A stretch of DNA of 64,000 bases from Phycisphaera sp. Its GTDB lineage: Bacteria > Planctomycetota > Phycisphaerae > Phycisphaerales > Phycisphaeraceae. This document shows, piece by piece, positions 16,579 through 47,881 of the stretch. The stretch covers positions 1-64,000 of the forward strand of contig WGMF01000028.1 in assembly GCA_016125215.1 (NCBI GenBank), in the 5' to 3' direction. Every line of letters begins with the position of its first letter. The first letter of the stretch is position 1. The notes under the pieces are model-generated. The model was not told where the DNA came from and did not search any database. It worked only from the letters and a program-made list of their open reading frames with translations. Made by a program: the position numbers and the translations under genes.

Positions 16579-16761
16579 ATGCTGGAAACATACGAACAAC
16601 TCAAGAAACTCGTTGAATCCATCGAAGACGACGTACGCAAAGCCGCAGGCGGCAACAAAGCGGCTGGCACCCGTGTCCGCAAGATGATGCAGGACATCAA
16701 AAACACCGCACAAGCTGTCCGCGTCAAGGTCCTCGAAACCCGGGAAACCACCGAAGAGTAA
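16579..16761 (+). CDS. histone H1-like protein Hc1 family, short form
   Basis: 60 residues matching the conserved N-terminal part of Hc1: a helical start (YEQLKKLVESIEDDVRKAA) followed by GNKAAGTRVRKMMQDIKN and a basic helix. Chlamydial Hc1 continues into a long Lys/Ala tail; this one stops after ETRETTEE, like the short forms of Bacteroidetes, and is not strongly basic at its end. It is expected to bind DNA in the nucleoid. ATG 16579 has GGAG 9 bases upstream; an upstream in-frame ATG at 16429 has no support. A GGAAG-rich tandem repeat begins right after the stop. Confidence 0.75.
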   Translation: MLETYEQLKKLVESIEDDVRKAAGGNKAAGTRVRKMMQDIKNTAQAVRVKVLETRETTEE

Positions 16762-16858
16762 CCCCCGGAAGTTAAAACCCCCGGAAGTAAAACCCCGGAA
16801 GTTAAAACCCCGGAAGTCAAAACCCCGGAAGTCAAAACTCCCGGAAGTTAAAAACCCC
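16762..16858 (+). repeat. tandem repeat CCCCGGAAGTTAAAA, six units
   Basis: Six imperfect 15-17-bp units of CCCCCGGAAGTYAAAA run directly from the Hc1 stop codon. The CCCGGAAG core recurs alone elsewhere (18655, 43495, 48299, 50173) and, on the complementary strand, in the MurJ linker near 36545-36606. It does not form an obvious hairpin. Confidence 0.9.
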
Positions 16859-17238
16859 GATTCTTGATGCCTCAGGGTGTCACGACCACGGCAGGTTGAA
16901 CCCCGGCTGTCCCGACAGACCCCGGCAAGCCCAGAGGCTGACAGTGCTCGGGGCCCACCGCCCCCTGATGGGGGTGAAAGGCCGTGGTTGAGCAACCCCA
17001 TCCACCGCGTGATCAATCCTGCTGTCGTGTGTCGGGCTCTCTACCCGTGAACACGATAAGCACGAATCGCGCTGTGCTGTTAACCTACTGCGCCGCCATC
17101 TTGCCAGCCGACCCGTGTGACCCTCGGCCGGTGCTGAAGTTTCAGGATCGACGGCGTATGTGTGCTTGAACCGTTGGACAGCAAATTTCCATCCGCACGG
17201 ACCGGACCGCCCCGTCAACCCTAAGTGAAAACCTGAAG
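16859..17238. other. intergenic region, nothing recognised
   Basis: 380 bp between the tandem repeat and the FabZ-like gene. No supported ORF, RNA or hairpin terminator was seen. Confidence 0.5.
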
Positions 17239-18651: not shown

Positions 18652-18689
18652 CCCCCGGAAGTCAATACAAGGTCTCTTAACCCGTCACC

Positions 18690-18727
18690 CGTCACTAGTC
18701 ACCACTCACCAGTCACCAGTCACCCCC
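18690..18727 (+). repeat. short repeats of CACCAGTCACC
   Basis: A 7-bp-periodic stretch (GTCACTAGTCACCACTCACC and CACCAGTCACCAGTCACC) between nuoJ and nuoK, next to a CCCCCGGAAGT element at 18653. Related CCACTAGTCCACTAGG sequence occurs at 26401 after nuoN. Confidence 0.7.
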
Positions 18728-19078: not shown

Positions 19079-19252
19079 ACCGCCAAGACGCCAAGGTCGC
19101 CAAGGTCGGAACAAAAGAACAGAGAAGAGAAGAAGAGAAGAAGAGAAGAGTGAAAATGAACGGCCATCAATCATCAATAATCAATCATCAATCATCAATG
19201 GTTTTCCTGCCTCGCCCCTGACATCAGACATCAAACATCAGACATCAGACAT
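19079..19252. repeat. cluster of intergenic modules
   Basis: Four low-complexity modules in series: CCGCCAAGACGCCAAGG (19080-19109), an AGAAGAGA run (19118-19150), ATCAATCATCAA heptamers (19164-19200) and ACATCAGACATCA (19219-19252). The module vocabulary recurs in other intergenic spaces. It fills the 188 bp between nuoK and nuoL. Confidence 0.8.
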
Positions 19253-34927: not shown

Positions 34928-37555
34928 TCACCTGCGCAGCAACCACCTGGGTTCTTCCATGCGCATCGCCAGCGCCGCCGCCGTGAAGATCGCTCCACCG
35001 AAACCGACACCCCCCGCGAGGAACAGGCCCGCGTGGGTCAAGGTCATTCCCATCACATCATAGGATTGGGTGTAATACACGAGTGCGGCGGTCATCACCG
35101 CGCTGGCAAGAAGGCACTTGCCCCACGACCAGAGCACCGCGCGATCGACAGGCTTATCCACGTAGTGCCGCACCACGGCGATCATCGCTGCGCACTGGAC
35201 CATGGCGCAGATCGCGGTAGCCCACGCAAAGCCCGCCGGCCCGAGGAACCAGACAAACGTGAGGTTGAGCATGAAGTTGAGCAGGACAAACGCGGTACTG
35301 AGGTAGAGCGGCGAGCGTGTGTCGCCCAGGGCGTAGAACGCGCGGGTGAGCACGTGGTTCATGGAATAGGCCCAGATGGCGGGGGCGTAGCCGATGAGGA
35401 TGAAGCTGACAATCTGTGAGTCGCTTGCGGTGAATTGACCGCGCTCGAAGATGACGCGCACGAGCGGCAAGCCGACGGCGATCAACCCCACGCTGGCGGG
35501 CAGGCCGATGAACACGGTCAGACGCAGGCCGTGGCGGAGGATATCGACAAAATGATTGCGGTCAGCCGAGGTGCCACCCATTGCGGTCGAGAGCGGCGCG
35601 GCACGGGAGAGCGCCGGGTAGATGGCGGTGGCGATGGCAATGCCGAAGATGCCCAGGGGGAATTCGTAGAGGCGTTGTGCCCACGAAAGTGCCGCCACGT
35701 CGCCGGCGTTGAGCGGCAGGGGCAGCGTGAACCCTAACAACTTGAAGTGGGCTGCGCCGTCGTCGGTCGCCCTCAGCGCCATGGCGACGGCGTTGTCTAT
35801 GAAGGTGTTGATCTGGAAGATGCCCATGCCGATCGCGGTCGGGGCAAAGCGTCGCATGAGCGAGCGGATGGCGGAGGTGGTCTGTACGTCGGGCTTGAGC
35901 AGCAGCGCGATCTTTTCGACACGGGCCACCGCCAGCACCTGCCACGCCAGTTGTAAAACGCCGGCCACGATGACGCTCAACGACACCGCGTAGACCGCAC
36001 GGTGGAGCACCGCATCCGAGCCATCGTTGCGGGTAAAGAGCAGGGCCACGGTGATGATGACGAGGTTGAGCAGGATCGGCGCAGCCGCGGTCGAAGCGAA
36101 CCTGTGATGCACCTGCAGGATCGACCCGATCACCGCCACGGCACAGACCAACGGCATGTAGGGCAGCATGACCATGGTCAGACGGATGGCTAGGACGCTC
36201 TGTTCGGACCACCCACCACGCGCAAGCAGGCCCACCAGCACGGCTTCGCCGATCAGCGTCACCAGCCCGAGGAATATCATCAGCACGCTCAGGCACAGCG
36301 AGAAAACGCGCGTGGCGGTGAGCCTGTCTTTGTGCAGCGCGTGGGCATAAACGGGGATCAGCGCCGCGGAGAGCGCCCCCTCGCCGAATAGCCTGCGGAA
36401 GAGGTTGGGGATTTGGAAACCAAAGACAAATGCGTCGGCCACAAGGCTACGCCCGAAGACCGCCGCAAGAACAGACTCACGACCAAGACCGGTGACACGC
36501 GACAAGAACGTCAACACACTGACCGTCCGTGCCCCCCCCACAAACGACGCCCCCCCGGAACCCCCGGAAGCCCCGGAAGCCTCGGAAGCCCCGGAACCCC
36601 CGGAAGTATTCCCCGAGGTTGATTCGGGTTGATTTGATGACTCATCGACTGATCGTGCGGTCGAGTGTGAGACGGTCTGTTTACGCCTGGCAACATCGAG
36701 CAGCGCAGCGCTGCAACGACTGGCGTGTTGTTGTGCAAGCACGAAACCCGTCCCCACCACAGCCGCGAACAAAAGCCCCAGTTCGTGCGCGACCATGTCG
36801 CCGTATTCGTGGCCGAGGTTGATGCGGTACTGCACCCACTCGATCACGGGTGACGCCAGCGCGACAACGACAAAAGCCCCGGTGCGCGTGAGCCACGATT
36901 GAGAATCACCAAATGGCCGCGCGGCGTTAAACAAGTAAAAGACCAGCGCCGCGCCTAGCGCGTGACCGAGGTAATCAAACCGCCAGACAAGAATGAAACG
37001 CGACGGGTCGGCGGCTTGCGGAAAGAGCGGTGCGAGGTTGATCCCCGGTGTAAAGAGCAGGATATACGCGAACGGCAGAAAGACCCCCAATAGAGCGCGT
37101 GAATAGACCACGCTCACGGGCCTGGGTTTGTCGAGTGAACGCACAATCACCCACGCGGGGACAATCGCCGCCAGGATGCCCATGAAGTTGGCAGACAGGT
37201 CGGGCCAGCACGCGGTGCGCTCGAAGATGGGGATGAGCTGGCTGGCCTCATCGATCGCTGCGTAGATTGTTGCGACACACGCGGCGGTGACGATGTGCCT
37301 CGCCCACGCGGCCCGCCGTCCCCCAATTCTCGCAAGGACGAGCAGCAGCGCCAGCAGCCCAAACGCTCCCCAGTGGACAATTTTGTCCACGTTGAGTTCG
37401 CTCATCTCCTGCTCGCCGATGTCGATCTTGAGGTTCGGCCAATGGGTCGAGACGGTCAGTGCAAGCCAATAAACGCCCAGCATCCAGCGCCAGAACAGAG
37501 GCTTGAGCCATCGGGGAGGTGAGTCGGTTTGATCGGGATTCGAGGGGAGGTTCAC
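34928..37555 (-). CDS. murJ: VanZ-VanZ-MurJ fusion (lipid II flippase)
   Basis: 875 residues. Residues about 20-290 hold two VanZ-like membrane units (for example VDKIVHWGAFGLLALLLVLA and FDYLGHALGAALVFYLF, each with following helices). Residues about 310-340 are a Gly/Ser/Ala linker. From about 345 the protein is MurJ/MviN with its 14 helices (TFLSRVTGLGRESVLAAVFG, IPNLFRRLFGEGALSAALIP). MurJ moves lipid II across the inner membrane. The GTG start overlaps the parA stop by four bases. The linker DNA (36545-36606) is made of the GGAAG-rich repeat seen elsewhere. Ordinary MurJ is about 510 residues. Confidence 0.88.
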   Translation of the reverse strand: MNLPSNPDQTDSPPRWLKPLFWRWMLGVYWLALTVSTHWPNLKIDIGEQEMSELNVDKIVHWGAFGLLALLLVLARIGGRRAAWARHIVTAACVATIYAAIDEASQLIPIFERTACWPDLSANFMGILAAIVPAWVIVRSLDKPRPVSVVYSRALLGVFLPFAYILLFTPGINLAPLFPQAADPSRFILVWRFDYLGHALGAALVFYLFNAARPFGDSQSWLTRTGAFVVVALASPVIEWVQYRINLGHEYGDMVAHELGLLFAAVVGTGFVLAQQHASRCSAALLDVARRKQTVSHSTARSVDESSNQPESTSGNTSGGSGASEASGASGGSGGASFVGGARTVSVLTFLSRVTGLGRESVLAAVFGRSLVADAFVFGFQIPNLFRRLFGEGALSAALIPVYAHALHKDRLTATRVFSLCLSVLMIFLGLVTLIGEAVLVGLLARGGWSEQSVLAIRLTMVMLPYMPLVCAVAVIGSILQVHHRFASTAAAPILLNLVIITVALLFTRNDGSDAVLHRAVYAVSLSVIVAGVLQLAWQVLAVARVEKIALLLKPDVQTTSAIRSLMRRFAPTAIGMGIFQINTFIDNAVAMALRATDDGAAHFKLLGFTLPLPLNAGDVAALSWAQRLYEFPLGIFGIAIATAIYPALSRAAPLSTAMGGTSADRNHFVDILRHGLRLTVFIGLPASVGLIAVGLPLVRVIFERGQFTASDSQIVSFILIGYAPAIWAYSMNHVLTRAFYALGDTRSPLYLSTAFVLLNFMLNLTFVWFLGPAGFAWATAICAMVQCAAMIAVVRHYVDKPVDRAVLWSWGKCLLASAVMTAALVYYTQSYDVMGMTLTHAGLFLAGGVGFGGAIFTAAALAMRMEEPRWLLRR

Positions 37556-38463
37556 GCCGACTGCCCGACCCCGGCCGCGATGACCGAGGCCGCCAGCTTG
37601 CGGTAGTCGTCCGCCCCGTTGGAGGTGGGTGCGTAGTCGTAGATCGTCTTACCGAACGAGGGCGACTCGGCAAGCTTGATGTTGCGACGGATCGGCGGGT
37701 CGAAGACCACAGCCTGACGCCAGGGCACGTCGAGCGAGCGGCCGGCGTCGAGAAAAGCCTTGACATCCGCCACGACTTCGCTGGCCAGGATCGTCTGCGC
37801 CTCGTGCATGCACAGCACCATGCCCGTCACGCGCAGCGAAGGGTTGAAGCCCTGCCGAATGAGCTGCACGGTTTCGAGCAGCTTGCTCAACCCCTGCAGC
37901 GCGAGGAAGTGGGCCTGCATCGGGACGACGACCTCGCTTGCGGTGGTCAGGGCGTTGATGGTGAGCAGGCCCAGGCTCGGCGGGCAATCGATCAGGACGT
38001 AATCGAATTTCTTCTCACCGTCACCCGAGAGCACGCCGGCTAGCCGATCTCGCAGCACACGCTGGGCCGACCCGGTGACCATCTTCGGGGCCAATTCCGT
38101 CTCCGCGCCGGCGAGATTGACTTCAGCCGGCAGGAGCGAGAGGTTCTCGTGCCCCTCGACGGTCCTAATCAACTGTTGCGCATCCGCGTCGTCGTCGGTG
38201 AGCAGGTGGTAGACGCTCGATTCGAGTTCGTTGGGGTCAACGCCCAGGTGGATGGTGAGATGGGCCTGCGGGTCGAGGTCGACCATGAGCACGCGGCACC
38301 CCTCCCGGCCCAGGGCGGCACCGAGGTTGGCAGTGGTCGTCGTCTTGCCCACGCCGCCCTTCTGGTTGAGCAAGGCGATCACACGGCATGGCCGACCGCG
38401 GGACTCAGACCCGGTATCCACCGCGTGGGTTATGGAAGTGTGGTCAGATACCGTTTGAGTCAC
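37552..38463 (-). CDS. parA: ParA/Soj-family ATPase
   Basis: 303 residues. Deviant Walker A is LNQKGGVGKTTTTANLGAA, with signature lysine, then VLMVDLDPQAHLTIHLG and the Walker B region VLIDCPPSLGLLTINAL. These ATPases place chromosomes, plasmids or protein complexes in the cell. No parB gene or obvious parS site is nearby; the gene is coupled to murJ by a GTGA overlap, so it may be the chromosomal Soj of a dispersed system or act with the envelope gene. Start GTG 38463. Confidence 0.88.
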   Translation of the reverse strand: MTQTVSDHTSITHAVDTGSESRGRPCRVIALLNQKGGVGKTTTTANLGAALGREGCRVLMVDLDPQAHLTIHLGVDPNELESSVYHLLTDDDADAQQLIRTVEGHENLSLLPAEVNLAGAETELAPKMVTGSAQRVLRDRLAGVLSGDGEKKFDYVLIDCPPSLGLLTINALTTASEVVVPMQAHFLALQGLSKLLETVQLIRQGFNPSLRVTGMVLCMHEAQTILASEVVADVKAFLDAGRSLDVPWRQAVVFDPPIRRNIKLAESPSFGKTIYDYAPTSNGADDYRKLAASVIAAGVGQSA

Positions 38464-47697: not shown

Positions 47698-47881
47698 CAA
47701 CACAGAGTACACAGAGGACTCAGAGAAGAAATCCATTGATAATTGATGATTGATGATTGATGATCTCAGAAGTTGAACCTCCGGTCGTAAGCGACCGGGC
47801 TAAATCTCAAAAACTCCTAACTCCTAACTCCTGTCTCCTCACTCCTGTCTCTTCTCTGTGTCCTCTGTGTTCTCTGTGTTT
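47698..47881. repeat. mirrored ACACAGAG repeat with nested modules
   Basis: Outer arms 47698-47730 and 47851-47881 are ACACAGAGGACACAGAG-type and mirrored. Between them are a TGATTGATGATTGATGAT run (47743-47763), a GGTCGTAAGCGACCGGGCT module (47782-47800) and CTCCTAACTCCTAACTCC (47814-47833). It fills the 228 bp between the leftward glycerate kinase gene and solute-binding gene. Confidence 0.9.

Follow-up and report, generated by a model that had tools for sequence, protein, structure and literature searches.

Why should a lipid II flippase carry VanZ domains at its N terminus, and what could they be doing there? VanZ is a widespread membrane protein family whose reaction, to our knowledge, is still unknown. 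The question is raised by one open reading frame (ORF) in the window, by which we mean the whole 64,000-nucleotide stretch of Phycisphaera sp. DNA analysed here, part of a 192-kb contig in a 4.04-Mb draft genome of 58 contigs that is rated 98% complete. The original prediction held that a single frame encodes two VanZ-like units, a Gly/Ser/Ala linker and a full MurJ; translation and profile matches confirm this, with the parts arranged along the frame as VanZ unit 1, VanZ unit 2, linker and complete MurJ (Table 1).

Table 1. Features of the fusion ORF and its surroundings, in window coordinates
Feature	Coordinates	Strand	Basis or remark
Whole fusion ORF, 875 aa, GTG start, no internal stop	34928..37555	-	ORF translation
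VanZ unit 1, aa 15-142, four helices in the model	37130..37513	-	NCBIfam and model
VanZ unit 2, aa 146-285, divergent	36701..37120	-	Profile match
Low-complexity Gly/Ser/Ala linker, about aa 286-338	36542..36700	-	Model confidence mostly low there
MurJ domain, aa 339-875	34931..36541	-	PF03023, TIGR01695, fold
ParA/Soj-like ATPase gene, upstream of the fusion ORF	37552..38463	-	Stop overlaps the fusion GTG start (GTGA)
CCCCGGAAG-type tandem repeat within the linker, period 9	36552..36606	.	Tandem-repeat rows
Period-15 array with CCCCGGAAG core, directly after the ORF ending at 16761 (putative Hc1)	16763..16859	.	Tandem-repeat rows

By profile, fold and charged residues, the C-terminal part is a predicted lipid II flippase. 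It matches PF03023 at E 4.8e-90 (302.8 bits against a cut-off of 27.4, aa 363-834) and the equivalog TIGR01695 at 331.3 bits (cut-off 235.55, aa 344-870), and the full AlphaFold model (mean pLDDT 78, pTM 0.64, with the MurJ block mostly at 80-97 and its lowest values, 65-79, in a few blocks) best matches solved MurJ, with a Foldseek E of 1.2e-16 to 7wax and a TM score of 0.86 by target length. Alignment to E. coli chains places R18, R24, D39, R52 and R270, which we take to be the cavity charges of E. coli MurJ under that numbering, all in the window protein, with D25 replaced by E and D269 by Q; the D39 position varies among relatives, being D in 32 of 38 fused rows and 25 of 61 other rows. 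In its full-length domain, fold and charged residues, the protein is like MurJ/MviN (TIGR01695, PF03023; structures 7wax, 6cc4 and 5t77), from which it differs by an N-terminal VanZ extension of about 340 residues. Mycobacterial MviN has a C-terminal pseudokinase and an extracellular domain and is, like the window fusion, a MurJ with an accessory domain that may regulate it, although that accessory domain is soluble and C-terminal, whereas the one described here is an N-terminal membrane domain. A profile search of the assembly found the MurJ of the fusion as its sole MurJ match, and the same genome has one FtsW/RodA match.

The two N-terminal units differ in how readily they are recognized. 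Unit 1 scores 34.9 bits against NF037970 (cut-off 20, aa 50-126) and 24.2 bits against PF04892, or 29.1 in another scan, both under that profile's cut-off of 30.1, and for unit 2 neither Pfam nor NCBIfam reported a match. A profile built from 53 single-VanZ units nevertheless matches unit 2 of the window at E 3.6e-8, and hhalign profile-profile comparison of unit 1 with unit 2 gives 98.6% (98.6-98.9% over comparisons). The 53-unit profile recovers 26 of 27 second units, 25 of them at E <= 3.6e-8 and one at 0.0012, missing that of G019, and it returned zero matches among its controls, 27 reversed units and 590 MurJ slices. Curated profiles are similarly uneven on separate VanZ genes: among three scanned, one scored above the cut-off (L039, 35.7), one below it (L037, 27) and one had no match (L044). 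Helices of unit 1 fall at 18-36, 55-74, 81-106 and 116-139 in model numbering; unit 2 modelled alone (mean pLDDT 79) has helices at 5-26, 42-70, 79-102 and 109-152. In the full model the four helices of unit 2 and the linker are at low confidence, and a Foldseek comparison of the unit 2 model with solved structures gave no match at E <= 0.001.

We assessed the spread of this linkage with iterated profiles in 101 genomes of the order including the window's own (95 with a match), 150 of the class and 199 of the phylum, sets that overlap. We read 92 loci of the order (window included; G020, G073 and G084 had matches and were left out) and 49 outside it, and the counts given here are of loci rather than of independent events. 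The same fusion, which the original prediction had proposed to seek in related genomes, is indeed present in them: VanZ and MurJ share one stop-free frame in 38 of the 92 Phycisphaerales loci, comprising 29 of 44 in the window's family (f1), all 8 in f6 and 1 of 17 in f2. The tandem VanZ form occurs in one family. Among individual loci, G047 has an in-frame TAG inside MurJ, though its junction is still scored as fused; the start positions of G003 and G099 are uncertain because both sit in very long open frames; and G011 has a long stretch following unit 1 in which a degenerate unit 2 may be hidden. Because the window's genome is a draft, an assembly error or a frameshift could in principle have joined two genes, an outcome named beforehand as refuting the fusion; yet the junction is open in 37 further loci, including those of the one-contig genomes G030, G005 and G034, and we regard such an artefact as exceedingly unlikely.

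Separate genes in relatives had likewise been named as a point against the fusion. They do occur, with a separate VanZ upstream of MurJ on the same strand in 42 of the 92 order loci (34 within 1.5 kb), and they bear on the origin of the joint rather than on whether the fusion is real. VanZ was not found near MurJ in 12 of the 92 (6 in f5, 3 in f2 and 3 in f3), including G065, whose contig stops at MurJ; each of the 6 f5 genomes has a VanZ match elsewhere, on a contig other than that of MurJ. The 49 loci outside the order gave no VanZ-profile match on the MurJ strand within the stretch read. A ParA gene lies upstream on the MurJ strand in 48 of the 92 order loci, among them G089 and G069, in which the VanZ profile found none. 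Adjacency or fusion of VanZ and MurJ is seen in five families (f1, f2, f3, f4 and f6), even though the MurJ matches are only 38-51% identical to that of the window.

On a MurJ tree of 99 rows, these states imply at least nine changes between fused and separate forms and at least eight between double and single VanZ. This tree was inferred quickly (LG+G4, with SH-aLRT as the sole branch support; G043, a short fragment, left out), and with 35 of its 96 inner branches open, gain and loss of the fusion are indistinguishable on it. Judged from gene order and this tree, VanZ and MurJ are the usual neighbours in a parA-vanZ-murJ cluster of the order, their genes frequently overlapping or lying almost end to end, and their fused and separate states appear to have changed repeatedly, which suggests that physical fusion is not needed. 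The separate pairs offer a view of how the forms may interconvert: in 14 of 23 close separate pairs (in f1, f2 and f4), MurJ could start at -4 relative to the end of the VanZ gene, an offset that also arises by chance after a TGA stop and so lends support rather than proof. The order-wide pattern illustrates how overlapping gene pairs can switch between fused and split forms.

Such switching could mean that VanZ is independent of MurJ and that fusion is a near-neutral outcome of overlapping, co-transcribed genes. The repeated changes of state on the tree, the possible 4-bp overlaps and the absence of adjacency from f5 all fit that account; however, linkage is retained across five families despite the low identity of their MurJ proteins, and fused loci form the majority in both f1 and f6. 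Weighing these, we consider near-neutral joining rather unlikely.

A different origin had been suggested for the window's fusion, namely that a GGAAG-rich repeat expanded over a former gene boundary. A repeat abundant in this genome does form an array in the linker: tandem-repeat rows give the array a period of 9 (6 copies, 91% matches) and also a period of 18, and the coding strand reads the antisense of CCCCGGAAG. The original prediction equated this array with the one after the ORF ending at 16761; the two, with periods of 9 and 15, have the 9-mer core in common but not the whole unit. The core is strongly enriched, with 19 copies in the window (100 shuffles averaged 1.06 and never exceeded 4) and 845 copies genome-wide against 65 for a control of the 9-mer written backwards. 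Tandem pairs number 89 in this genome against 0 for the control, and they occur in 32 of 46 sampled f1 genomes, up to 485; over the same 46, control pairs were 0 in most, 12 in G033 and 1 in two others. Within 21 stretches of the window's genome, a biased sample made up of the window and 20 stretches picked around arrays, with genes called by a home-made codon score, CCCCGGAAG lies 48 times in sense, 25 times in antisense and 37 times between genes (1, 1 and 0 for the backwards control).

Comparison of junctions tells against the repeat as cause. Two or more copies of CCCCGGAAG are found at the window's junction alone, 1 of 38 fused and 0 of 34 separate loci, and a single copy occurs at four other fused junctions and at 1 of 34 separate ones. 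Linkers elsewhere vary in their letters and in length, from about 0 to 59 aa, with one of 178 aa that may hold a degenerate unit; in f6, where all 8 loci are fused, they measure about 0-21 aa. The possible overlaps in separate relatives mean, moreover, that there was often no spacer to cross. Although the array itself and the four single-copy junctions speak for it, creation of the fusion by an expanding CCCCGGAAG/GGAAG repeat is therefore not supported, and we hold it to be very improbable. Because the array is found at one junction and possible overlaps are frequent, the repeat seems to postdate the fusion and most likely entered an existing, permissive linker.

The repeats have features of their own. 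CCCCGGAAG arrays are short and many, with array-specific spacers, and lie in both coding and non-coding DNA; six copies in the stretches read start 1-3 bp past a predicted stop on their own strand. The window further contains clusters of 7-14-bp tandem arrays (18680-18724, 19115-19252 and 47735-47880), presumably of the kind named STRR in cyanobacteria. A literature text search for CCCCGGAAG gave, among the matches listed, none on planctomycetes.

If the linker is incidental, the conserved features of the VanZ units are a better guide to their role. Counting over 107 VanZ units, the conserved residues of unit 1 are R23, H38, D57, H61, D102, E103, Q106, R113, D119, N123 and G126, and unit 2 keeps D194, H198, E239, Q242, D253 and H257 with loss of the loop Arg (R to L). 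An alignment of the two window units with 10 named records (12 rows) shows no variation at an R in helix 1 or at D, H, E, Q, D and G. In 78 of 80 VanZ-bearing loci (37 of 38 fused and 41 of 42 separate), at least one unit carries a complete set of six residues: D and H in helix 2, E and Q in helix 3, R in the loop and D in helix 4. The two exceptions are G017 and the separate pair of G023, in which the helix-2 D is absent from both units; in G016, unit 1 has lost the set and unit 2 is intact. As an observation in its own right, the fused VanZ unit of G017 (L056) has 5 of the 6 residues replaced with its MurJ frame open, a natural loss of the putative site. Lys and Arg are denser in the loop between helices 2 and 3 (2.2-2.9 per unit) than in the loops between helices 1 and 2 and helices 3 and 4 (1.0-1.9), a comparison made with no significance test; this distribution suggests that both termini lie inside, and the conserved residues are accordingly predicted to face outside.

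The motifs also place the window units relative to described families. In VanZ-1, according to excerpts of PMC12419801, helix 2 has an N, helix 3 an ExxQ common to Skillet and helix 4 a DxDDxxxN; VanZ-2 has RKxxH in helix 2 and DxxxD in helix 4. Unit 1 of the window (DKxxH, ExxQ, R, DxxxN) and unit 2 (D..xxH, ExxQ, DxxxH) are a mixture of the two. The same excerpts predict flipped lipid II head groups as the target of VanZ-1 and VanZ-2 and describe VanZ domains fused to, or in the neighbourhoods of, genes that include a lipid-carrier flippase (PMC12419801, eLife 2025).

Recurrent joining of VanZ to MurJ suggests a shared substrate, the cell-wall building block that the flippase moves. Given what the sequences show directly, namely the domain architecture, a linkage that spans the clade and a conserved set of residues, we tentatively propose a MurJ with a fused tandem pair of Lipocone-type VanZ units that act on the flipped, diphosphate-linked head group, a reading that we rate as a serious possibility somewhat short of probable. 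Each unit would consist of four helices with both ends in the cytoplasm, so that the linker would be cytoplasmic as well, and the conserved D..H, E..Q, R and D..N/H would cluster on the outside of the membrane, the side on which MurJ releases lipid II. The chemistry that we infer for the VanZ units would be a cleavage or transfer reaction with lipid II or the spent carrier as substrate, and fusion or tight co-translation would keep flipping and head-group processing together. Several observations weigh against this reading: the 12 order loci without a nearby VanZ, the depleted residue sets of G017 and G023, the missing loop Arg of the window's unit 2, that unit's low confidence in the full model and its lack of a solved match, and the repeated changes between fused and separate forms. 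We also considered VanZ as a missing C55-PP phosphatase, a role weakened by UppP in 56 of 61 order genomes (the window's included) and two PAP2 matches in the window's genome; with these present, the cell need not depend on VanZ alone for carrier phosphatase activity.

Alternatively, VanZ may be no enzyme at all but a membrane scaffold or gate that regulates MurJ through its opening, its substrate access or its placement with ParA. A single MurJ match with a covalent partner, the ParA neighbour in about half of the order loci, the tandem VanZ seen in one family and the persistence of the fusion in G017 after loss of the VanZ motif can all be read in this way. Conservation, however, centres on polar residues resembling an active site, which a scaffold does not obviously need, and we judge regulation of this kind doubtful.

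Returning to VanZ units as head-group enzymes, a stronger form can be envisioned in which MurJ is a flip-and-process machine and VanZ cleaves or re-heads the emerging lipid II (or a different lipid-linked sugar), thereby setting precursor supply at the point of flipping. This version strikes us as unlikely; if true, it would give VanZ a native substrate and could explain how VanZ elsewhere lowers antibiotic binding to cells, as reported for teicoplanin in excerpts of PMC7146870. The VanZ of the glycopeptide resistance clusters described there belongs to a VanZ-like family, as do the window units, but the latter sit with parA and murJ and do not imply resistance. More generally, the covalent tie to a sole MurJ match, the order-wide recurrence and the conserved polar set would make lipid-linked wall precursors, or the carrier of these, the likeliest VanZ substrates; the single fused protein, or a relative's separate pair, provides a system in which the role of VanZ could be tested.

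That the fusion hints at VanZ working with the lipid II flippase, as the original prediction argued, is reasonable; its general form is already published, since excerpts of PMC12419801 link the VanZ-1 and VanZ-2 Lipocone families with flippases of the MviN_MATE clan, a linkage common to the window. Among the matches listed in our literature search on VanZ and MurJ/MviN-type flippases, that paper alone appeared to link both. Relative to its Lipocone families as given in those excerpts, the window has a tandem VanZ before its sole MurJ match and the mixed motif, and the order has parA synteny and repeated change of state. To that published picture the present analysis adds the pattern across the order, the occurrence of VanZ in tandem, the shifts between fused and separate genes, ParA as a neighbour, and arguments against the repeat having caused the fusion.

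The genome of the window also holds VanZ matches away from the fusion. On contig C35, an 858-aa ORF (L190, 775-3351) has two VanZ matches above the Pfam cut-off (50.1 and 43.1 bits) and is unfused to MurJ. On contig C13, a 373-aa ORF (L191, 919-2040) has a VanZ match of 39.3 bits and lies beside an ORF that we take to be hexapeptide-acyltransferase-like.
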